From positions 1-46,974 of the forward strand of contig CANQHA010000016.1 in NCBI GenBank assembly GCA_947623585.1: 46,974 nucleotides of DNA, in the 5' to 3' direction. The DNA is from an uncultured Clostridia bacterium. Lineage in GTDB: Bacteria > Bacillota > Clostridia > Oscillospirales > Ruminococcaceae. Positions 4,405 to 44,880 of this stretch are shown piece by piece. Made by a program: the position numbers and the translations under genes. The notes under the pieces are model-generated. The model saw only the letters and a program-made list of their open reading frames with translations, did not search any database and was not told where the DNA came from. Every line of letters begins with the position of its first letter. Within the stretch, counting starts at the first letter, position 1.

Positions 4405-4495
4405 AAACGGGGGGGCGGCGGGGGGCCCGCACGGCGGGGCCGGGCGGGCAGCCCGACGAAGTCGGGGGCGGGCGCGGCCGGAGGCGGAGGGGCAA
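4405..4495. other. GC-rich intergenic junction beyond the recombinase
   Basis: A very G-rich stretch separates the recombinase stop from the aldo/keto reductase. It contains a short hairpin (CCCGAC GAA GTCGGG) and resembles a decayed copy of the GC-rich structured repeats near 30.5-37.9 kb. It probably contains or flanks the right boundary of the mobile element; the exact attachment site could not be defined from one copy. Confidence 0.35.
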
Positions 4496-20411: not shown

Positions 20412-20546
20412 TGCGCGTCTTTTCGCTTCACTTTTCTGCGCGGACAGAAAAGTGAAGGAACCCTCCCCCTCGGGGAGGGACGAAAGGGTGGGGCGCTGAA
20501 CGACAGCATTCATCTTCCCCTCGCGCATGGGGAAGATGAATACCTT
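20412..20546 (+). repeat. Family 1 hairpin repeat, diverged copy 5
   Basis: A variant unit: a hairpin CTTCACTTTTCTG/CAGAAAAGTGAAG, the palindrome CCCTCCCCCTCGGGGAGGG, the motif GGGTGGGGCGCTGAACGAC, and a terminal stem ATTCATCTTCCCC with GGGGAAGATGAAT ending ACCTTA. It directly follows composite copy 4. Confidence 0.65.
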
Positions 20547-28541: not shown

Positions 28542-30230
28542 CTACCCCCAAATCGTTCCGAGGTACTCCACTCTTTCCCTCGTCCAATCAAGCGTAGTCT
28601 TCGCTCGGCCCGAGCGCCTCTCGCCGTCCTTATTGAACTCGTCCGAGTAATTGACGACAAGGTCCTCGACCTCGTCCAAGGCGGCGTTTATGCTGTCAAG
28701 GCGGGCGTTCCACTTCTGTCTGACGAGCTCCTTGAACCAGTCGGCCGAGTAAAAGAGTATCAGCCAAGGGTTAGAACGGTCGCCGAGGTTTAGCGTGTCG
28801 ATAAAGTAGCTGTCCTTAAATTTTGCGGCATAAAGCCCGCCGTCGGCTTTTGAGTTGTTGTCGGTATAACCCCAGTCAAAGTCCCAGGGAGCCACCATTG
28901 TCAGCCGTTCATATTTCGGGTCTTCGCCGAAATCGACCGCGAAGAAGAAGCTGCCGCCGCCGAGGTCCTGATCGTTGACAATTTCGTAGAGAATATACAT
29001 ATCGACGACCGAATTGACGTCGAAAACTGCGTTTACGCACTCATAGGCCGAGGCGAACATATCCTGCGCCGGAACGAGGTCATAATTTTCGTCATAGGTA
29101 TAGAATTCGCCGTATTTTATCGCTCGCAGGGCGATCTCGTATGCTACCTCGAAATATCGCTCGATGAATTTTAGCTGCTCGTCCGAGTAGAGGTCGTTTT
29201 TGACGGAATAGGAATATTTTCTCGGAACGCGGGAAGTGCCGTAAGCGTCGGTGATCTCTTCAAGGTTAAAGTTGAGGAAGAAATAGGGGTCGTCGTCGCT
29301 GGTGGCATAGTTGTCGAGCTCGACGAGGTAACCGATATCGGTGCCGGTATACCCCTCGGGCGCCTCGTTGATATCGACGCGGTTTGAGTTTTCCTGAGTT
29401 TGTTCGCAAAGCTGATAGGGTCCCAGATATTCTTCGTTGATATAAAGCTGCACGAAGATAGAATCCGAGGTATAATAATCGCCGTTGTTTATCGCCTTTG
29501 CGAGCCTGAACGCAAGGTGGTTCCGTATGGCGGTCTCATAGGGCTTGAGCAGCACCCACGAGCGGCATTTTGCAAAATCGTTCAGCCCGAGCATCGACTG
29601 TTTTTCGTTGAATTTTATTCTGTAAGAAACGGGGTTTTGGCGTATCCAATCCACGTTGCCGTAGTTCGCGCTCGCGTTGCCCCTGACCCTGATGCCGCCC
29701 TCCGAGGCTTCAAGCTGATAGACCGCGTCGCAGTTCATGACCTCAACGAAGCAGTCAACATATTCGTCGCGAGAGAGTATTTCGGCGTTGTTTTTGGTCG
29801 AGATGTGGATCACCGGAAATTCCGTTTCCGAGCATATCTTCGTATAAAATCCGTCGCGCAGCGATTTGTCTATCCCGTAGCTGTCATAGATCGCCGCGGG
29901 GTCGTTTTTTGAAAGGTCGAGGTTTTCGCTCCAGTTGTCAACGATCATGCCCAATTGATTTTCTTGGTCTGACGGTTCGGTCTGCAGCTCAGAAGAAAGC
30001 TCGGTCGAAGATTCAACCGGCGGCTCGCTTGAATTTGAGGGTGTCTCGCTTCCCAAAAGGTTGTCCGGCACATTGGGGTCGTGCGAGGTAACGACGGGCG
30101 GATCCGAGGCGGGCGGCGCGGTAAGTGTCTCCTGCGAGTCGTCGGTCTTTACTGCCGAGCAGGAAGAAAGAAGTGCCGAAAAAGACATCAGCGAGGCGAG
30201 AAAAAGTGCGTTTAACGAGCGTTTGGACAT
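28542..30230 (-). CDS. CotH-like kinase family lipoprotein
   Basis: A 562-residue predicted lipoprotein (signal peptide with ALLSSC, Cys24), a Ser/Thr/Glu-rich linker to about residue 95, then a CotH-type domain. CotH proteins are atypical kinases, and spore CotH phosphorylates coat proteins. Typical segments are GGIRVRGNAS, RIKFNEKQSMLGLNDFAKCR, RNHLAFRLAKAI, VQLYINEEYLGPYQLCEQTQ and the metal-binding MVAPWDFDWGY. Many non-spore CotH lipoproteins are surface proteins, often near VTC and DUF4956 genes, as loosely seen here. Kinase activity is not proven by sequence alone. The start has a GAGGTTGAAT site and the promoter at 30283-30310. Confidence 0.85.
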   Translation of the reverse strand: MSKRSLNALFLASLMSFSALLSSCSAVKTDDSQETLTAPPASDPPVVTSHDPNVPDNLLGSETPSNSSEPPVESSTELSSELQTEPSDQENQLGMIVDNWSENLDLSKNDPAAIYDSYGIDKSLRDGFYTKICSETEFPVIHISTKNNAEILSRDEYVDCFVEVMNCDAVYQLEASEGGIRVRGNASANYGNVDWIRQNPVSYRIKFNEKQSMLGLNDFAKCRSWVLLKPYETAIRNHLAFRLAKAINNGDYYTSDSIFVQLYINEEYLGPYQLCEQTQENSNRVDINEAPEGYTGTDIGYLVELDNYATSDDDPYFFLNFNLEEITDAYGTSRVPRKYSYSVKNDLYSDEQLKFIERYFEVAYEIALRAIKYGEFYTYDENYDLVPAQDMFASAYECVNAVFDVNSVVDMYILYEIVNDQDLGGGSFFFAVDFGEDPKYERLTMVAPWDFDWGYTDNNSKADGGLYAAKFKDSYFIDTLNLGDRSNPWLILFYSADWFKELVRQKWNARLDSINAALDEVEDLVVNYSDEFNKDGERRSGRAKTTLDWTRERVEYLGTIWG

Positions 30231-30282
30231 ATATTCAACCTCCGTGAAAAAGGGCGTAAGCTGTCATGCGTATTCATATTTT

Positions 30283-30310
30283 ATTATAGCACCATTCGCG
30301 GAAAATTCAA
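30283..30310 (-). promoter_or_regulatory. Promoter of the CotH-like gene
   Basis: On the minus strand, TTGAAT (30310-30305), 16-bp spacer, TATAAT (30288-30283), about 50 bp upstream of the start at 30230. Confidence 0.55.
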
Positions 30311-30370
30311 TAACAAAACCCTCAAAAAGGAAAATTTAATGATTTTTTAAAAAGCCGCCGCCGCTTTCGG

Positions 30371-30398
30371 TTGACAAAATCGGCGGAACGGCTATAAT
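30371..30398 (+). promoter_or_regulatory. Promoter of the RluA-type synthase gene
   Basis: TTGACA (30371-30376), 16-bp spacer, TATAAT (30393-30398). The start codon is 276 bp downstream, so the transcript would have a long leader containing the cloverleaf-like repeat at 30519-30610. Confidence 0.6.
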
Positions 30399-30518
30399 AA
30401 ATAGGAAAAGAAAGTGCCTTGAATTTCGGCGGGAAATTTTAGACTGCGAAAATTCAAAGAGCGCGCCGACTTAGAGTTTAAGGCCGCCCGAGGCATAAAG
30501 TGCGGGCGCCGCACCTTT

Positions 30519-30610
30519 GGGGCGAAGCCCCCGGCGCGCTCCGCGCGCCGGCCCGCGCCCCTCGGGGGCGCGGGAGAAAATCCGCTTCGCGGATTTTCGG
30601 GCTTCGCCCC
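30519..30610 (+). repeat. Family 2 cloverleaf-like GC repeat, copy A
   Basis: An outer stem GGGGCGAAGCCC / GGGCTTCGCCCC encloses three perfect hairpins: CCGGCGCGC/GCGCGCCGG, CCCGCGCCCC/GGGGCGCGGG and GAAAATCCGC/GCGGATTTTC. A small extra hairpin (GTGCG/CGCAC) precedes it at 30500-30514. It lies in the leader of the next gene. Confidence 0.7.
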
Positions 30611-30673
30611 GCGCTCGGCGGCAAATTTCGGCGCGGTCTCGGGCAAAATCTATCCGAAAGCGAGGGGATATCA

Positions 30674-31633
30674 ATGCGCGAATTTTTGATCGGCTCAAAC
30701 GACGCCGGCCAGCGGGCCGACCGGTTCATCTCAAAAGCCGTGCCGCTTTTGCCGAGCGGAAAGATGTATAAATTCCTCCGCGAGAAGAAGATCATGCTGA
30801 ACGGCAAGCGCTGCGAGATATCCGCCCGCCTTTGCGAGGGCGACGTCATAAGAATGTATATACCCGACGATTTTTTCGGAGAAGCCGCGCCCTCAAAAGA
30901 CGGTTTTTCCGATATCCCCGCCGAGCTCGACATCGTTTATGAAGACGAAAACATTCTTTTGGCGAACAAGCCGAGCGGGCTTTTGGTACATGACGACGAC
31001 CGAAGTACCCGCGACACGCTGATAAACCGAATCACAAATTATCTTATCGTCTCGGGAGAGTACGACCCCTCGGCCGAAAACAGCTTTGCGCCCGCGCTTT
31101 GCAACCGTCTCGACCGCAACACCGAGGGCATAGTCGTCTGCGCAAAGAACGCTGAGAGCCTAAGAATACTCAACGAGGCTATCCGCGAGCGCAGGCTAAA
31201 AAAGACCTATCTCTGCGCCGTGGCTGGCGCTCCCCGCGAGCCGAGCGGAACCATCAGGACATATCTTGAAAAGTCGGAGGCGGACAACACGGTTTACGTC
31301 AGGCATGAAAAAACGCCCGGCTCGAAGACCGCGATAACCGAGTATCGAGTGTTAAAGACCTGCGGCGGGCTTTCTTTGTGCGAGGTTGGGCTTATCACCG
31401 GAAGAACTCATCAGATCCGCGTTCACATGGCATATATCGGCTGCCCGATAGTCGGCGATTCAAAATACGGCAGAAACGAGATAAACCGCCGCTATCACCG
31501 AAAAACGCAGGCGCTTTGCGCATACAGGCTCGCCTTTGAGACCGACCCCTCGGGGCTTTTGGGCTATCTTTCGGGCAGAGTGTTTGAAGCGCCCGAGCCT
31601 TTATTTGTCAAAGAATTGTTCGGCGGCTATTGA
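30674..31633 (+). CDS. RluA-family 23S rRNA-type pseudouridine synthase
   Basis: A 319-residue pseudouridine synthase. An N-terminal S4-like RNA-binding domain (QRADRFISKAVPLLPSGKMY, then LNGKRCEISARLCEGDVI) precedes the catalytic domain. Catalytic Asp is in ALCNRLDRNTEGIVVCAK; LVHDDD, GRTHQIRVHMAYIGCPIVGD and SKYG are typical RluA/C/D motifs. The exact RNA target is not determinable. Start ATG 30674 has GAGGGG upstream; the frame is open upstream through a GC-rich repeat but that extension is not credible. The 3' end overlaps the -35 box of the next promoter. Confidence 0.92.
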   Translation: MREFLIGSNDAGQRADRFISKAVPLLPSGKMYKFLREKKIMLNGKRCEISARLCEGDVIRMYIPDDFFGEAAPSKDGFSDIPAELDIVYEDENILLANKPSGLLVHDDDRSTRDTLINRITNYLIVSGEYDPSAENSFAPALCNRLDRNTEGIVVCAKNAESLRILNEAIRERRLKKTYLCAVAGAPREPSGTIRTYLEKSEADNTVYVRHEKTPGSKTAITEYRVLKTCGGLSLCEVGLITGRTHQIRVHMAYIGCPIVGDSKYGRNEINRRYHRKTQALCAYRLAFETDPSGLLGYLSGRVFEAPEPLFVKELFGGY

Positions 31634-31658
31634 CTGATTCGCAAAAAGGGGATATACT
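31630..31658 (+). promoter_or_regulatory. Sigma-A promoter of the TSCPD gene
   Basis: TTGACT (31630-31635, overlapping the previous stop codon), 17-bp spacer, TATACT (31653-31658), 28 bp before the start. Confidence 0.6.
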
Positions 31659-31686
31659 GTAAGAAATATCAGAAGGAGGCAATAAT

Positions 31687-31929
31687 ATGGTAATCAATTA
31701 TAAAACTACCGGCACCTGCTCGAGGCAGATAAACGTCACGGTGGAGGACGGCGTGATCGAAAACGTCGAATTTATCGGTGGCTGCAACGGCAACACCAAG
31801 GGCATTTCGGCGCTCGTCAAGGGTATGAAGGCCGAGGACGTCATCGCCCGCCTTGAAAACACAAAGTGCGGCCCCCGCCCGACTTCCTGCCCCGACCAGC
31901 TCGCGCAGGCGCTCAAGCAGGCGCTGTGA
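31687..31929 (+). CDS. TSCPD-domain small protein (TIGR03905-like)
   Basis: An 80-residue protein whose C-terminus carries the name-giving PTSCPDQLAQAL motif, with further cysteines in GTCSRQ, IGGCNGNTKG and TKCGPRP, giving four Cys in all. TSCPD domains also occur at the C-termini of some ribonucleotide reductases, where they may bind metal; the stand-alone family has no established function. Start after AGAAGGAGGCAATAAT. It has its own promoter and a terminator hairpin 22 bp after the stop. Confidence 0.85.
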   Translation: MVINYKTTGTCSRQINVTVEDGVIENVEFIGGCNGNTKGISALVKGMKAEDVIARLENTKCGPRPTSCPDQLAQALKQAL

Positions 31930-31951
31930 CCAAAAACCGAATCGTGACGCC

Positions 31952-31998
31952 AAAAGTCAATGTGACCCATTGACTTTTTGTTTGCGCCGTGCTATCAT
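31952..31998 (+). promoter_or_regulatory. Terminator hairpin overlapping the uvrB promoter
   Basis: AAAAGTCAATG and CATTGACTTTT (31952-31978) form an 11-bp terminator stem after the TSCPD gene. The right arm contains the -35 box TTGACT (31970-31975); a 17-bp spacer and TATCAT (31993-31998) follow. The uvrB start is 213 bp downstream, with a family 2 repeat in the leader. Confidence 0.6.
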
Positions 31999-32034
31999 AA
32001 TAAAAACGTTTGTTCTTCTGCGCCTGCGCGTTGA

Positions 32035-32130
32035 GGGCGAAGCCCCTCCGGCGCGCAGCGCCGGCCCCCGCCGCCCCGCGGGGGCGGCGGGGCCAAAGCG
32101 CCCCTGCGGGGCGCTTTGGGGGCTTCGCCC
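32035..32130 (+). repeat. Family 2 cloverleaf-like GC repeat, copy B
   Basis: An outer stem GGGCGAAGCCCC / GGGGCTTCGCCC encloses hairpins CCGGCGC/GCGCCGG, CCCCCGCCGCCCC/GGGGGCGGCGGGG and CAAAGCGCCCC/GGGGCGCTTTG. It lies in the probable uvrB leader. Confidence 0.7.
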
Positions 32131-32210
32131 CGACCCCGCGCAAAAACCCGGCTTCGCGCCTTGAACCTAAGCCCAACCCCCTCGCGCTTATTTTCCCGAA
32201 AGGAGCTTTC

Positions 32211-34190
32211 ATGGACAGATTCGTTCTCAAAAGTGAATTCAAGCCCACCGGCGACCAGCCGCAGGCGATAGAAGCCCTTGTAAAGGGTATCCGCGAGGGC
32301 AAAAAGAACCAGACGCTTATGGGGGTCACCGGCTCGGGAAAGACCTTTACTATGGCCAACGTCATCGCCGGAGTGAACAGACCTACCCTTATTTTGGAGC
32401 CTAACAAGACCCTCGCCGCGCAGATATGCTCGGAGTTCAGAGAATTTTTCCCCGACAGCGCCGTCGAGTTTTTCGTCAGCTATTACGACTATTACCAGCC
32501 CGAGGCTTATATCCCCTCGACCGACGTTTACATCGAGAAGGATTCCGACGTCAACGACGAGATAGATCGTTTAAGACATTCGGCGACCGCAGCGCTTTCC
32601 GAGCGCAGGGACGTTATAATCGTCGCCTCGGTGAGCTGCATATATTCTCTCGGAGACCCCGAGGAGTATAAAGATCAGATAGTTTCGCTGCGCCGGGGTA
32701 TGACGAAATCCCGCGAGCAGCTTCTTTCCGAGCTCGTCTCTATTCAATATGAGAGAAACGACGTTGATTTTCAGCGAAACCGTTTCCGCGTCAGGGGAGA
32801 CGTAGTTGAAATTTTCCCCTCCGGCTCGAACGACACTGCGATAAGGGTCGAGTTTTTCGGAGACGAGATCGACCGCATCAACGAGATAAACATCGTCACC
32901 GGCGAGGTCATAAGCTCGCTTGCGCACGTTCCGATATTTCCCGCCTCGCACTATATCACGAGCAAGGACAAGCTGCACGACGCCATCGAGGACATCGAGG
33001 CGGAGATGCGCGAGAGAGTCGAATTTTTCCGCTCGCAGGATAAGCTGATAGAAGCTCAGAGGATAGAGCAGCGGGTGAAATACGACATGGAGATGCTTGA
33101 AGAAGTCGGCTTTTGCAGCGGGATCGAGAACTATTCGAGGGTGCTTGCAAGGCGTGAGCCGGGGGCGGTGCCTTACACGCTTTTAGACTTCTTCCCCGAG
33201 GATTTTCTTTTGATAGTTGACGAATCTCACGTCGCGCTGCCGCAGGTCAGGGGAATGTATGCCGGAGACAGGGCGAGAAAGACCACCCTTGTCGATTACG
33301 GCTTCAGGTTGCCCTCGGCGCTTGATAACCGCCCGCTGACCTTCGACGAGTTTTATTCGCACGTTAATCAGGCGGTATTCGTTTCGGCTACGCCCGGGCC
33401 TTTTGAAAAAGAGCACTCCGACGCCGTCGTCGAGCAGATAATCCGTCCGACCGGCCTTTTGGATCCTCTCATCGAAGTTAAGCCGACTCAGGGGCAGATC
33501 GAGGATCTGATACTTGAGATAAACCAGCGCGCCGAAAAGGGCGAGAGGGTGCTTGTGACCACCCTGACCGTCAAAATGGCCGAAGACCTCACGCAATATC
33601 TTCAGAACGTCGGCATAAAGGTGAGATATATGCACCACTCGATCGACACCATCGAGCGAATGGAGATAATAAGGGATCTCAGGCTCGGAGAGTTTGACGT
33701 TTTGGTCGGAATAAATCTTTTGAGAGAGGGTCTCGATCTGCCCGAGGTCTCGCTCGTCGCGATACTTGACGCCGACAAAGAGGGCTTTTTGCGAAGCGAG
33801 AGCTCGCTTATTCAGACGGTCGGGCGTGCGGCGAGAAATTCGGGCGGCAAGGTTATAATGTATGCCGACAGCGTTACCGGCTCGATGGAGCGGGCGATAA
33901 CCGAGACCGAGCGCCGCCGCGAGATCCAGAACGCATACAACGTCGAGCACGGTATCACTCCGAAGACGATAATCAAGGGCGTTCGCGACGTTATCGAGAT
34001 AACCACCAAGGAGACGTCGAACAAGGAGCTCAAGAAGTATTCAAAGAAAGAGCGCCTTGAGATGATAGACAAGATGACCAAGCTGATGAAAGAGGCGGCC
34101 AAGCAGCTCAACTTCGAGCAGGCAGCCTATTACAGAGACAAGATAGCCGAGCTGAGAAAGCTCGACCTAAAGGGAGCAAAGATAAAGTGA
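32211..34190 (+). CDS. uvrB: Excinuclease ABC subunit B
   Basis: A 659-residue UvrB, the damage-verifying helicase of nucleotide excision repair. Walker A is [15 protein letters not shown], the beta-hairpin that clamps DNA is in [20 protein letters not shown], the DEAD-like box is [13 protein letters not shown], and motif VI is [13 protein letters not shown]. The UvrC-binding UVR domain closes the protein ([20 protein letters not shown]). Start ATG 32211 follows AAAGGAGC. uvrA lies 150 bp downstream, separated by a family 2 repeat; uvrC is not in the window. Confidence 0.98.
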
Positions 34191-34208
34191 CCCGCCGCGG
34201 CGCCGCTC

Positions 34209-34296
34209 GGCGAAGCCCCGAGCGGGCAGCTTCGCTGCCCGCCCCGCCCCCCCCGCAGGGGGGCGGCGCCCGATATATCGGGCGCGGGGCTTCGCC
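34209..34296 (+). repeat. Family 2 cloverleaf-like GC repeat, copy C
   Basis: An outer stem GGCGAAGCCCC / GGGGCTTCGCC encloses hairpins GCGGGCAGC/GCTGCCCGC, a C-run/G-run stem (near 34241-34266) and GCGCCCGATATATCGGGCGC. It lies between uvrB and uvrA. Confidence 0.7.
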
Positions 34297-34340
34297 TCAG
34301 GGCGCCTGCGTTTCACAAAAAGCATTAAGGAGAAAAACCA

Positions 34341-37190
34341 ATGGGAGCAAACGAGATAGTAATAAAAGGCGCGCGAGAGCACAATCTCAAAAACATCGAC
34401 CTTGTTATACCCCGCGACAAGCTGATAGTTTTCACGGGGCTTTCCGGCTCGGGCAAATCAAGCCTTGCGTTCGACACTATTTTTGCCGACGGTCAGCGCC
34501 GCTACATCGAAAGCCTTTCAAGCTATGCGAGAATGTTTTTGGGTCAGATGGACAAGCCCGACGTCGATTCTATCGAGGGGCTTTCTCCGGCTATATCAAT
34601 CGACCAGAAAACCACCTCGAACAACCCGCGCTCGACGGTCGGCACCGTCACCGAGATATACGATTATCTCAGGCTTTTATATGCAAGAATAGGCGTGCCG
34701 CACTGCCCGGTCTGCGGGAGAGAGATAAAGCGCCAGTCGGTCGATCAGATAGTCGATCAGATACTTGCGCTCGACGAGGGCACAAAAATTCAGCTTTTGG
34801 CGCCGATAGTCAGGGGACGCAAGGGAGAATATCAGAAAGAGCTTGAAAACGCCCGCAAATCGGGCTATGTCCGCGTAAGGGTCGACGGCGTGACATATGA
34901 TCTTTCCGAGAAGATAACGATGGACAAAAACAAGAAGCACAACATCGAGATAATCGTCGATCGCCTTGTCATCAAGCCCGAGATACGCTCACGCCTTTCC
35001 GACAGCGTCGAGACCGTCACCGGTCTTTCGGGCGGGCTTGTCGGCGTAGATATCATCGACGGCGACGAGCTTTTGTTCAGTCAGAATTACGCCTGCCCCG
35101 ATCACGGCGTTTCGGTCGAAGAGCTCGCCCCGAGAATGTTCTCGTTCAACAATCCCTTCGGCGCCTGCCCCGACTGCACCGGTCTCGGAGTTTTCAGAAA
35201 GGTGGACGAGCGCCTTGTTGTTCCAAACGACGACCTTTCTATCCGTCATGGGGCGATCAGAGCCGACGGCTGGAACACCCTTGAACCCGGCTCAATGACG
35301 ATGATGTTTTATGAGGCTATTTCCGAGGAATTCGGCATATCCCTCGATACGCCGGTAAAAGACCTCAGCCGCGACGAGCTTGACATTTTTCTTTACGGCA
35401 CCGGCTCGAAAAAGCTGAAATTCAAGCGTCCCGACGAGTGGGGAGGGGGCTATTGGATAACTCCGTTCGAGGGGGTAATAAACAACCTCGAGCGCCGCTA
35501 CAAATCCTCCGAGAGCGACGTGACAAAGGCCAAGATCGAGGAATATATGTCCGACGTCAAGTGCCGAACCTGCAAAGGCGACAGGCTCAAAAAAGAATCC
35601 CTCGCGGTGACCGTCGGCGGGCTCAACATCGCCGATTTCACAAAGATGTCGATATCCGAAGCGCTCGATTTCGTCGATCGCCTCGAGCTTTCGGAGCGCG
35701 AAAAGCTGATAGGCGCGCAGATACTCAAAGAGATACGCTCGCGCCTCAGCTTTCTCAAAAATGTCGGCCTCGATTATCTGACGCTTTCGCGTTCAAGCTC
35801 GACCCTCTCGGGCGGAGAGAGCCAGCGCATACGCCTTGCGACGCAGATAGGCTCGATGCTCATGGGAGTGCTTTACATTCTCGACGAGCCGTCTATCGGG
35901 CTTCACCAGCGCGACAATTCAAAGCTGATAGAGGCGCTGAAGCGGCTTCGCGACCTCGGAAACACTCTTATCGTCGTCGAGCACGACGAGGAGACGATGC
36001 TTTCCGCCGACTATATCGTCGACGTCGGGCCGGGGGCGGGCATTCACGGGGGAGAGATAGTCTGCGCCGGCACCCCCGAGGAGATAATGGCGTGCGAAAA
36101 TTCTATAACCGGTCAATATCTTTCGGGCAGGCGCTCGATACCGGTGCCGACGGCAAGAAGAAAGGGAAGCGGTCAGTTTTTAAAGGTCATCGGAGCACGG
36201 GAAAACAACCTCTGCGGAATCGACGTTTCTATCCCGCTCGGAACTTTCACCTGCGTTACCGGCGTTTCGGGCAGCGGAAAATCGTCGCTTGTGAACCATA
36301 TAATCTATAAAGAGCTTGCGAACAAGCTGAACCGCGCTCACACCGTTTCGGGCGAGTTCAAAAAAATCGAGGGGCTCGAGCACCTCGACAAGATAATCAA
36401 CATCGACCAGTCGCCGATAGGAAGAACGCCGCGCTCGAACCCCGCGACCTATACCGGAGTTTTCGACGACATAAGAAACCTCTTCGCGCTCACTCAGGAG
36501 TCGAAGATGCGCGGTTATACTGCGGGGAGATTTTCCTTTAACACCCGCGGCGGGCGGTGCGAGGCCTGCTCGGGCGACGGAATATTAAAGATAGAAATGC
36601 ATTTTCTGCCCGACGTATACGTCCCCTGCGAGGTCTGCGGCGGCAAGCGCTATAACCGCGAGACCCTCGAGGTCAGGTATAAGGGCAAAAACATCGCCGA
36701 GGTCCTTGATATGACCGTAGAGGAGGCGTGCGGCTTCTTTGAGAATATGCCGAAAATATACCGAAAGATAAAGACCATGCGCGACGTCGGGCTCGGATAT
36801 ATCAAACTCGGGCAGCCCTCGACCACTCTTTCGGGCGGAGAAGCACAGCGCGTAAAGCTGGCGACCGAGCTTTCAAGAAGGGCCACCGGCAGAACGATAT
36901 ATGTCCTTGACGAGCCGACGACCGGGCTTCACGCCGACGACGTTTCAAAGCTGATAGATATGCTTCAGCAGCTCGCCGACGTCGGAAACACCGTGCTTGT
37001 CATCGAGCACAACCTTGACGTAATAAAATCGGCCGATTATATCATCGACCTCGGCCCAGAGGGGGGAATTCGCGGCGGAACCGTCGTGGCGACGGGTACT
37101 CCGGAAGAAGTCGCGAAGAATGAGAAGTCCTATACGGGGCAGTATCTGAAACTTGCGCTGAACGGGTATAAAAAGGCGGCGAACAAGTGA
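34341..37190 (+). CDS. uvrA: Excinuclease ABC subunit A
   Basis: A 949-residue UvrA, the damage-recognition ATPase dimer of nucleotide excision repair; the length is normal. Two ABC modules are seen, with Walker [16 protein letters not shown] and [15 protein letters not shown] and signatures [12 protein letters not shown] and [12 protein letters not shown]. Zinc-binding cysteine pairs occur in [20 protein letters not shown] and [17 protein letters not shown]. Start after AAGGAGAAAAACCA. The stop overlaps the GTG of the following hydrolase by four bases. Confidence 0.98.
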
Positions 37191-37816
37191 CAAGGGTATT
37201 TCTGCACGGCTTGGGGCAGATCCCGGGCAGCTGGGAAAAGACTGTCGGGCTCTTGGGCGGCGCCGAGAGCTGCATATGCCCCGACTTGACAAAAACGCGC
37301 GGTAAGCCGCTCACATACCGGGGGATATACTCAAAGCTCTGCGAGACCCTCGGCGGCTTGGAGGGTCCGCTGGAGCTCTGCGGGCTGTCGCTCGGCGGGG
37401 TGCTGGCGCTGAATTATGCCGCCGACTGCCCGGAAAAGGTGGGCTCGCTTGTCCTGATAGCGGCGCAGTATAAAATGCCGAAAAAGCTGCTTAAATTCCA
37501 GGATTTTCTTTTTAAGCTGACGCCTGAAAGGGCGTTTTCGGGCGCGGGGTTTTCAAAGGCGGACGCGATAAGCCTCTGCAAGACGATGTCGGAGCTTGAT
37601 TTCACCGAATCGCTCGGAAAAATCGAATGTCCCGCGCTTATAATCTGCGGGGAGAAAGACCGCGCGAATAGGAAAGCCGCGGAGGAAATGTCCGAAAAAA
37701 TCCGGAACGGCAGGCTTGTTACCGTCAAAAACGCGGGGCATGAGATAAACGTCGAGGCGCCGGAGGAGCTGGCGGAGATAATCCGAAAACAGGGCTCGGC
37801 GCAAAAAACGGGATAA
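37187..37816 (+). CDS. Alpha/beta hydrolase
   Basis: A 209-residue alpha/beta-fold hydrolase with a plain triad: nucleophile Ser68 in CGLSLGG, Asp158 in [10 protein letters not shown] and His185 in [21 protein letters not shown] gives the oxyanion-hole strand. The substrate is unknown; esterase, lipase and C-C hydrolase relatives look alike. GTG start overlaps the uvrA stop by four bases, so it is translated with uvrA, though a repair role is not implied. There is no signal peptide. Confidence 0.85.
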
Positions 37817-37858
37817 ACGGCGCGAGGTCTTTCAGGGCTGTCTGCGAGGCGGGGGCTG

Positions 37859-37937
37859 CCGGGCGAAGCCCCGTCGCGCTTCGCGCGACGCGCCGCTTGC
37901 GGCGGCGGTGCGCCTTCGGCGCACGGGCTTCGCCCGG
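37859..37937 (+). repeat. Family 2 cloverleaf-like GC repeat, copy D
   Basis: An outer stem CCGGGCGAAGCCC / GGGCTTCGCCCGG encloses hairpins CGTCGCGC/GCGCGACG, CGCCGC/GCGGCG and GTGCGCC/GGCGCAC. It lies between the hydrolase and the phosphatase genes. Confidence 0.7.
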
Positions 37938-38010
37938 ACCTTCCTCTACCGCCAAACCCCACTCCCGCGTCAAGCCGTAATATACAATCAATATCAAGGA
38001 GCTGACAAAA

Positions 38011-38739
38011 ATGAGACTTCTCATCATTCGCCACGGCGACCCCGACTATTCTATCGACAGCCTCACCGAGAAGGGCTGGCGCGAGGCCGAGCTTCTTTCC
38101 GAGCGCATCTCGAAACTTGATGTAAAGGCGTTTTACTGTTCACCCCTCGGCAGGGCAAAGGACACCGCGAAGGCGACCCTTGAAAAAATGCACCGAGAGG
38201 CCGAGATCTGCGACTGGCTCAGAGAGTTTTACTATTGCAAGGTAAAAGTCCCCGGGCGCGACGAGGCGGATATCTGCTGGGACTTCATGCCGTCGTTTTA
38301 CACGAAAGTCGATGAGCTTTACGACCCCGAGAAATTCAAGGAGACGGATTTCATGCGCGAGGGGAATTATCCCGAGCTTTTCAAGGCGGTCGCCGACGGA
38401 ATGGACGAGCTTTTATCAAAGCACGGTTATCGACGCAACGGGCGCTATTACGACGCCGTCGAGCCGAACCGCGACACTGTCGTGCTGTTTTGCCACTTCG
38501 GCGTGATGTGCCAGCTCCTCGGGCATATTTTGGGGCTTTCACCGGTCATTTTGGCTCAGAATTTCTGCGCCGCGCCGACCTCGGTGACCACGCTCATAAC
38601 CGAAGAGCGCGAGGAGGGCGTTGCGATTTTTCGCTGTCAGAGCTTCGGCGACCTCTCCCATCTTTATGCCGCCGGCGAGGAGCCTGCCTTCGCCGCAAGG
38701 TTCTGCGAGCGCTACATAGATTTTGACGAGAGGCATTGA
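38011..38739 (+). CDS. Histidine phosphatase family protein
   Basis: A 242-residue member of the phosphoglycerate-mutase-like superfamily. The phosphohistidine is His8 in LIIRHGDPDY, with FYCSPLGRAKDTA supplying the second arginine and VVLFCHFGVMCQLLGH the second histidine. Such proteins remove phosphate from sugars, nucleotides or cofactors; the substrate is not clear. Start after AAGGAGCTGACAAAA. It is separated from the preceding genes by a family 2 repeat. Confidence 0.88.
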   Translation: MRLLIIRHGDPDYSIDSLTEKGWREAELLSERISKLDVKAFYCSPLGRAKDTAKATLEKMHREAEICDWLREFYYCKVKVPGRDEADICWDFMPSFYTKVDELYDPEKFKETDFMREGNYPELFKAVADGMDELLSKHGYRRNGRYYDAVEPNRDTVVLFCHFGVMCQLLGHILGLSPVILAQNFCAAPTSVTTLITEEREEGVAIFRCQSFGDLSHLYAAGEEPAFAARFCERYIDFDERH

Positions 38740-44733: not shown

Positions 44734-44880
44734 CTGCCAAGTGGCAGGTCCGGGGTGATGAATATTTTCACGAAGTGCGCACTTCTATACCCCCGCTTGG
44801 GGGTATGTGCGCTCTGCGGTGCGGGTCGCCGGTGGCGACCTCTGCCGAAGGCAGAAGCACCGACCGAGGCGACAGCCGAG
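44734..44880 (+). ncRNA. Cluster of four hairpins after the ABC gene, possible structured RNA
   Basis: Four consecutive perfect or near-perfect stems occur: CTGCCA/TGGCAG (44734-44747), ATACCCCC/GGGGGTAT (44787-44806, extended by GCGCAC/GTGCGC), GGTCGCC/GGCGACC (44824-44840) and TCTGCC/GGCAGA (44841-44855). A rho-independent terminator follows at 44886. This could be a small structured RNA or an elaborate 3' UTR; no known RNA family was recognised and no promoter is evident. Confidence 0.35.

Follow-up and report, generated by a model that had tools for sequence, protein, structure and literature searches.

Cloverleaf repeats in uncultured Clostridia keep a three-armed fold while their arm sequences vary

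Four intergenic elements in the window, that is the whole stretch of 46,974 nucleotides analysed here, belong to a repeat family in which an outer stem encloses exactly three hairpins. All four elements fold into this cloverleaf design, and the comparison of copies points to an element that is inherited by its fold rather than by its sequence, the letters of the hairpins changing in matched pairs. We regard it as probable that the repeat is a non-coding mobile DNA cassette of ~75-95 bp that is kept as a four-way junction and rewritten by template switching. No description of such a three-armed cloverleaf family was found in the open-licence PMC literature. In the following, G000 is the genome of the window, other G numbers are the compared genomes and L numbers are fetched loci.

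Cloverleaf elements in the window

A sequence-only reading of the window had proposed the four elements of Table 1, each with an outer stem and three hairpins, and both folding and a scan blind to sequence returned them at the same positions. As single-stranded DNA, each element folds better than all 200 of its dinucleotide shuffles. The inner hairpins of the four copies are unrelated to one another and all four copies fold alike, which bears out the view that the shape is conserved and the inner sequence is free. The outer stem had been described as constant; it is near-constant, but not strictly so, and it covaries in some copies, as in the pair L268/L332, where L332 carries GGCGGAGCC/GGCTCCGCC. 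Each half of the outer stem is itself a possible mini-hairpin, GGGC-GAA-GCCC or GGGC-TTC-GCCC. The remark that the elements lie on the transcribed strand is uninformative, as either strand takes up the cloverleaf shape (the reverse strand tested was that of 30519-30610). The elements had also been placed in gaps of an rluA/uvrB/uvrA/hydrolase/phosphatase stretch. This holds for elements 2 to 4, but the gap of element 1 is a divergent one between rluA and a gene on the opposite strand. The promoter region upstream of element 2 contains AACGTTTGTTC at 32005-32015, which we take to be a LexA-like box.

Table 1. Position, folding and gene neighbourhood of the four cloverleaf elements of the window (loops in brackets; energies and z values are for single-stranded DNA).
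Element	Position	Strand	Outer stem	Arms	Energy (kcal/mol)	z	Neighbourhood
1	30519..30610	.	30519-30530/30599-30610	30531-30551 (TCC), 30552-30574 (TCG), 30576-30598 (TTC)	-55.2	-8.3	Divergent gap between a CotH-like gene (28542-30230, minus) and rluA (about 30674)
2	32035..32130	.	32035-32045/32120-32130	32048-32064 (GCA), 32066-32092 (GCG), 32093-32119 (TGC)	-57.5	-7.1	uvrB leader, after the promoter region and before the uvrB start at 32211 (uvrB by Pfam)
3	34209..34296	.	34209-34220/34285-34296	34222-34242 (TTC), 34244-34266 (5-nt loop), 34267-34284 (TATA)	-50.0	-8.8	Gap between uvrB (end 34190) and uvrA (start 34341; uvrA by Pfam)
4	37859..37937	.	37859-37871/37925-37937	37872-37890 (TTC), 37891-37907 (5-nt loop), 37908-37924 (TTC)	-46.8	-7.5	Gap between an alpha/beta hydrolase gene (end 37816) and a histidine-phosphatase gene (start 38011)

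Other palindromic sequences are present in the window and its genome. The region 4405-4495, which had been suggested as a degenerate relative, was rejected; it has neither the outer stem nor the triple hairpin, and 26 of 200 shuffles fold as well (z -1.1). Two clusters of two adjacent hairpins each, at 20426-20479 and 44824-44855, are unrelated to the cloverleaf. A second composite palindromic repeat occurs on contig C19 of G000 (L296, 8960-9190 and 12435-12660), with constant ends AAAGGTAT...GCTATCG, a CACCCCACCCCCG/CGGGGGTGGGGTG stem and hairpin sequence that varies between copies.

Constancy of the arm number

The sequence-blind scan accepted two to seven hairpins enclosed by a stem of 8 or more pairs, and in the window it found only the four elements. 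When it was extended to 419,940 bp of G000, made up of the window and 20 stretches of which several were picked for known copies, it returned 22 structures, and all 22 have three hairpins; the GGCGAAGCC outer stem is present in 20 of them. No stem-enclosed hairpin cluster appeared when every stretch was shuffled locally once. The same scan of loci from related genomes found three hairpins in 176 of 178 structures and two in the other 2 (the 176 and the 22 of G000 have one structure in common). These loci were mostly fetched for holding the pattern, so the counts measure the constancy of the arm number and not its frequency. Controls made up of viral contigs, other bacteria and another clade of the genus (839,473 bp) contained no such structure, nor did shuffles, and the strict scan gave no cloverleaf in 69 viral loci and all 21 non-clostridial loci. 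Among the 69 viral and 13 non-clostridial loci shown, chance three-hairpin folds (L051, L073, L094, L141, L146, L173 and L189) and one four-hairpin fold (L154) were rejected, as they are not three long stem-closed hairpins.

The exact outer-stem pattern matches the window 3 times and 100 shuffles of it not at all. The element at 32035 escapes the pattern because its 76-nt interior is beyond the 75-nt limit. In the whole G000 genome the pattern occurs at 25 places and a reversed control pattern at none. The sequence-only reading had set genome-wide counts and a preserved hairpin number beforehand as the points on which it would stand or fall, and on both the family lies far beyond what is expected of GC-rich spacers. 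Exact-pattern counts are lower bounds because outer stems vary. These and all other results come from genomes that are drafts, mostly metagenome-derived, in which palindromes may be misassembled.

Spans running from GGCGAAGCC to GGCTTCGCC with interiors of 15-260 nt give a similar picture. Well-paired spans with three arms make up 217 of the 257. Those with four, five or seven arms (14) mostly cover two adjacent elements or include the long class or an extra hairpin, those without arms (8) mostly begin or end within an element, 2 are two-armed and 16 are poorly paired. Interiors of 85-115 nt, searched in 12 genomes, occur at 5 places, one in each of five genomes, against 1 for the reversed control (in G017); at four of these the fold again has three arms, only longer, and at the fifth the pattern had run from a stray half-site into a three-armed element. 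The junction itself is tight, with no unpaired base in 34 and one in 33 of 136 clean elements. Orphan half-sites that have a hairpin are mostly of a long-arm class in G017. This class measures ~150-190 bp (L038, L041, L042, L058, L065, L077, L084 and L086) and shares the outer stem; arms 1 and 3 are small, the middle arm reaches ~90 nt or more, and most of those shown have three arms. Its arms have a constant base (TAA or CAA) and a variable tip.

Distribution among genomes

Exact-pattern copies were found in 17 of 31 genomes of the genus and in 3 of 49 others (80 genomes scanned), with 3 to 204 copies in each genome that has the family. The listed matches of G053 and G065, two of the three genomes outside the genus, and those of G002 and G029 are not cloverleaf-like by eye; the third outside genome, G045, is known as an exact-pattern match only. 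A covariance model detected the family in 13 of the 31 genomes, missing G016 and G028 despite their exact-pattern copies. In an even sample of 295 genomes from 148 genera of the order only two were positive, both of this genus, where 17 candidates were scored per genome listed and weak or scarce copies could escape. Nearly all carriers group in a single clade when compared by UvrB similarity; G026, with three copies, lies outside it. The cloverleaf family hardly occurs beyond this clade of a single genus.

Among the matches listed in a public pattern scan, most are 'Lapin' uncultured Clostridia, which going by the name would be rabbit gut genomes, and one is a Ruminococcaceae genome, RUG14213, presumably from the rumen. 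The cloverleaves of RUG14213 (L037, L131) have A+T-rich arms and outer stems that are partly different but alike.

Changes in arms and loops

Orthologous elements of G003 and G010, whose flanking DNA is ~80-93% identical, were compared pair by pair. In unambiguous rows there are 21 paired changes versus 7 one-sided changes beside 180 identical pairs (24 arms), these rows being without L264, L268 arm 2 and L276 (second element) arms 1-2, which are misframed by a loop shift; in all rows the counts are 49 versus 8. Both counts omit the inverted pair L267/L277 and the pair L270/L289, which has one flank in common and unrelated arms. The 21 paired changes comprise 10 transitions, which could pass through G-U, and 11 transversions with no G-U path, namely 5 swaps and 6 others. 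Larger replacements were observed as well. In some arms the inner stem is kept and the arm base is replaced on both sides; the arm-3 base CTCCGT/ACGGAG is common to three G010 elements and absent from their G003 orthologues. In the orthologues L267/L277 the entire interior is inverted.

Selection for structure together with ordinary mutation could also be the source of paired changes, and only the loop inversions bear directly on template switching. When the loops of matched arms were compared, with orientation set by arm order and over 336 non-independent pairs, 349 were the same, 119 were the exact reverse complement, 96 had one substitution, 54 were inverted with one substitution, 52 were otherwise different and 80 differed in length. 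If only a few loop sequences are favoured, some of these inverted pairs would arise from that alone. The clearest case comes from G018, which has 31 near-identical 77-bp copies. Over 2,108 stem positions 9 differences were counted, one copy accounting for five; the stem is wholly identical in 26 of the 31. The middle loop is GAA in 17 copies and the reverse complement, TTC, in 10. It is not credible that three matching point mutations produced this alternation in a third of the copies because there are almost no changes elsewhere in them. Not all arms flip, however; the third loop is TTC in 31 of 31, and this is counted against the template-switch reading.

In the available portions of a study in yeast, template switching at inverted repeats is reported to cause arm homogenisation and spacer inversion, including gaa/ttc (PMC8604942), and it is argued in the available text of another that template switching creates and maintains RNA hairpins (PMC8794818). 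Both hallmarks, homogenised arms and inverted loops with unchanged stems, are seen in the cloverleaf family.

Occupied and empty sites

In the rluA-uvrB gap a cloverleaf occupies the same spot in G000 and G016, between the LexA-like box and the uvrB start, and the arms of the two are unrelated. In the other 11 of 13 loci, the 350 nt upstream of uvrB contain no cloverleaf by the strict scan. For one of these, G020, a relaxed scan called a structure with three arms upstream of uvrB, in surroundings unlike those of G000 and G016, and in the other 10 neither scan found one within that distance. The uvrB-uvrA gap holds a cloverleaf in 5 of 11 readable loci (G000, G003, G010, G018 and G017). The two genes are ~0-51 nt apart in four (G014, G015, G004 and G007), while the gap contains a GC-rich two-armed remnant in G028 and other repeats in G022. 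The G022 gap (L216) measures 668 nt in a gene pair that is otherwise tight, with dense palindromes and a nearly exact ~190-nt tandem repeat. For at least 11 of the 18 elements in G003, G010 carries an orthologue.

Of 12 relatives, G018 alone shares the copy that precedes the phosphatase gene; it has a near-identical copy of element 4 including its flanks (L329). Between window positions ~37835-38090 and L329 the element and the start of the phosphatase gene are nearly identical, whereas divergence is clearly higher in the remainder of the gene and the sequences upstream are different. This tract is likely to reflect a recent interspecies exchange or transfer between G000 and G018.

The identity among the 31 G018 copies is bounded by the outer stem, with sharp ends and diverged flanks. 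Target-site duplication does not exceed chance, with 0 nt in 18, 1 nt in 6 and 2 nt in 1 of the 25 copies that have usable flanks. The flanks of these identical copies are often related, diverged repeats with a consistent layout, so homogenisation in place explains the burst as well as new insertion does. Flank motifs are TTTGCGC in G000 and G003/G010, GTGCAG in G017 and GGAGCAG in G018; no common target was found because each species has its own. The comparison of orthologous sites shows the element occupying some and absent from others and, as far as the alignment of such sites can tell, the cloverleaf is mobile or at least dispersed.

DNA-level and RNA-level evidence

The sequence-only reading had hinted at a transcribed RNA structure. 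The transcript might fold as the cloverleaf and serve as a leader element, an mRNA stabiliser or an sRNA, with compensatory drift under selection on the RNA. The location of element 2 in the uvrB leader and of element 3 between uvrB and uvrA is in keeping with this, and so are the many paired changes, 10 of the 21 being passable through G-U. Selection on an RNA fold should favour G.U pairs. However, 568 of 621 arms are perfectly paired, and the 38 mismatches beside 5,413 pairs show no such excess, with 10 G.T versus 15 A.C (4 and 3, few in number, when oriented by co-directional genes). The 11 transversions speak against an RNA route as well, and loop inversions would alter an RNA loop. The two strand forms of the loops occur in comparable numbers (TTC 129/GAA 104, TGC 53/GCA 45, TCC 63/GGA 38), and when oriented by flanking genes there are 70 GNA and 55 TNC loops, which is strand-symmetric.

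Co-directional, divergent and convergent gaps hold 57, 15 and 14 elements versus 211, 80 and 65 such gaps available, roughly in proportion; this context rests on 86 of 207 elements, as 107 lie inside a mechanical ORF and 14 are without a usable flank. Rfam 15 gave no match in the window at the gathering threshold, and one weak match, off all elements, at E up to 1 in 30200-38100. We therefore give the RNA reading little credence. Still less can be said for ordinary GC-rich spacers or intrinsic terminators, which we consider practically negligible. High G+C and hairpins are what such sequences would have, but none of the shuffles and controls contains the structure, and a T-rich 10-mer follows the outer stem at 12 of 405 ends versus 2,446 of 27,888 background 10-mers, so that the intrinsic terminator was rejected for lack of a T-tract after the stem.

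The loops carry a signature that would make sense for DNA. Triloop arms are closed by C-G in 487 of 503 cases and have a GNA or TNC loop in 439 of 503, whereas the remaining stem pairs are 2,201 C-G versus 1,920 G-C. A weaker bias of the same kind is seen in other hairpins of these loci (C-G closure 208 of 293, GNA/TNC 145 of 293). Extraordinarily stable DNA mini-hairpins are described, in the available part of PMC4686876, with a GNA loop on G-C pairs, and GCGAAGC among them melts at 78 C. GCGAAGC is also the outer-stem core of the cloverleaf. Since C-G-closed GNA/TNC triloops dominate, most triloops are super-stable DNA loops on one strand or the other. As judged from these sequence statistics, the evidence fits a DNA-level rather than an RNA-level element.

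Discussion

What the family conserves would be the way in which a single DNA strand folds, its three hairpins and GC-rich outer stem making a nearly fully paired four-way junction. We infer that template switching at replication copies one half of an arm from the other, by which arms would stay perfect and loops would invert, and that the cassette may be copied to new places, or swapped between old ones, as a folded single strand. Template switching can keep arms perfect; it does not by itself account for the arm number of three. More speculatively, the three arms and the stem could present a Holliday-like four-way junction that is acted on by some host enzyme. A search for an enzyme tied to the copies, directed at the Y1 transposase (PF01797), gave none, with 0 matches in G000, and the link to junction-processing enzymes is speculation.

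Dispersal need not mean transposition. The elements could be old palindromic spacers whose likeness within a species is maintained by ectopic template switching or by gene conversion, with the constant outer stem as anchor, a possibility that we take seriously but hold to be doubtful. The orthologous copies shared by G003 and G010, the identical G018 cassettes with their diverged but often consistently laid-out flanks, and the CTCCGT arm-3 base found at three G010 loci and not in their G003 orthologues can all be read this way. It is harder to reconcile with loci that lack any copy alongside occupied ones, or with a copy number that ranges from 0 to 204 inside one genus. A different route to mobility, which seems to us unlikely, is that the cloverleaf resembles REPINs and owes its movement to a REP-associated tyrosine (Y1) transposase, which acts on single-stranded DNA hairpins. 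In the portions of PMC3116915 available, Pseudomonas REPINs are described with a 'clover' configuration and frequent compensatory changes in the spacer, and the cloverleaf likewise lacks a target-site duplication. PF01797 is present in 8 of the 31 genus genomes (G004, G014, G015, G016, G017 and G018, and weakly G006 and G010), but it is absent from G000 and from G003 (18 copies), G005 (15 copies) and G020 (73 copies in a genome that is 76% complete). No cloverleaf lies beside the four Y1 loci examined, of 19 places. The GTAG/CGTC tag is lacking, as 406 element ends have 6 GTAG and 5 CGTC against a background expectation of ~5 and 17. Nor does arm 3 repeat arm 1, as their identity is 0.41 versus 0.45 for random partners, and only the outer stem is an inverted pair.

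The mobile cassette rewritten by template switching, which we prefer, leads to a more far-reaching and quite tentative idea. The cloverleaf might be a mobile element by shape alone, in which a strand with a Holliday-like three-arm junction is the unit of propagation, the arm sequences are dispensable and template-switched, and spread depends on a general host enzyme for junctions or hairpins and not on a dedicated transposase. What in the cell counts the arms, if three are fixed and their sequence is not?

Comparison with known systems

The cloverleaf has the terminal inverted repeats of a MITE that makes target-site duplications, namely the outer stem at which the G018 identity ends, but not the duplication. 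As for a partner transposon, the four examined Y1 loci carry no cloverleaf (Y1 transposases were the only ones searched). Parvovirus terminal repeats are also folded DNA with an outer stem; they coexist in flip and flop forms, have two inner arms with small palindromes, serve as a viral replication origin and work with a Rep protein. The cloverleaf differs from them in its three arms, and nothing viral was seen here.

Of the known kinds, REPINs are the closest to the cloverleaf. The available portions of PMC3116915 and PMC3733652 describe REPINs and REPs as short non-coding intergenic palindromes with many copies, inverted ends, a spacer conserved in its pairing only and a clover fold, all of which the cloverleaf elements share. 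Unlike REPINs, they have no tag, no Y1 transposase in G000, no copy relation between arms 1 and 3, three inner hairpins and a conserved outer stem. Since the transposase, the tag and the paired REPs are lacking, the cloverleaf may work like a REPIN but is not classed as one. Hairpins of organelle genomes (Volvox palindromes, sponge and fungal elements; PMC2670323, PMC2800124) are likewise apparently selfish or mobile and spread between genes, as those sources, in their available parts, have it. The Volvox loops are given as 3-5 nt and mostly TAAA or TTTA, which are both strand forms of one loop (PMC2670323, in the part available). These hairpins are single, double or irregular, and the available parts of both papers describe no fixed three-arm junction.

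Template-switch mutation, as presented in the available text of PMC8604942 and PMC8794818, resembles the cloverleaf family in arm homogenisation and in loop inversion including gaa to ttc. There it acts on scattered repeats and RNA genes, whereas here it would shape one dispersed family. Whether paired changes in stems arise by selection or by a mutation that copies arms is treated as an open question in what is available of PMC8794818. With hundreds of copies of one fold, and loops that flip in otherwise identical sequence, this question becomes countable in a bacterium.
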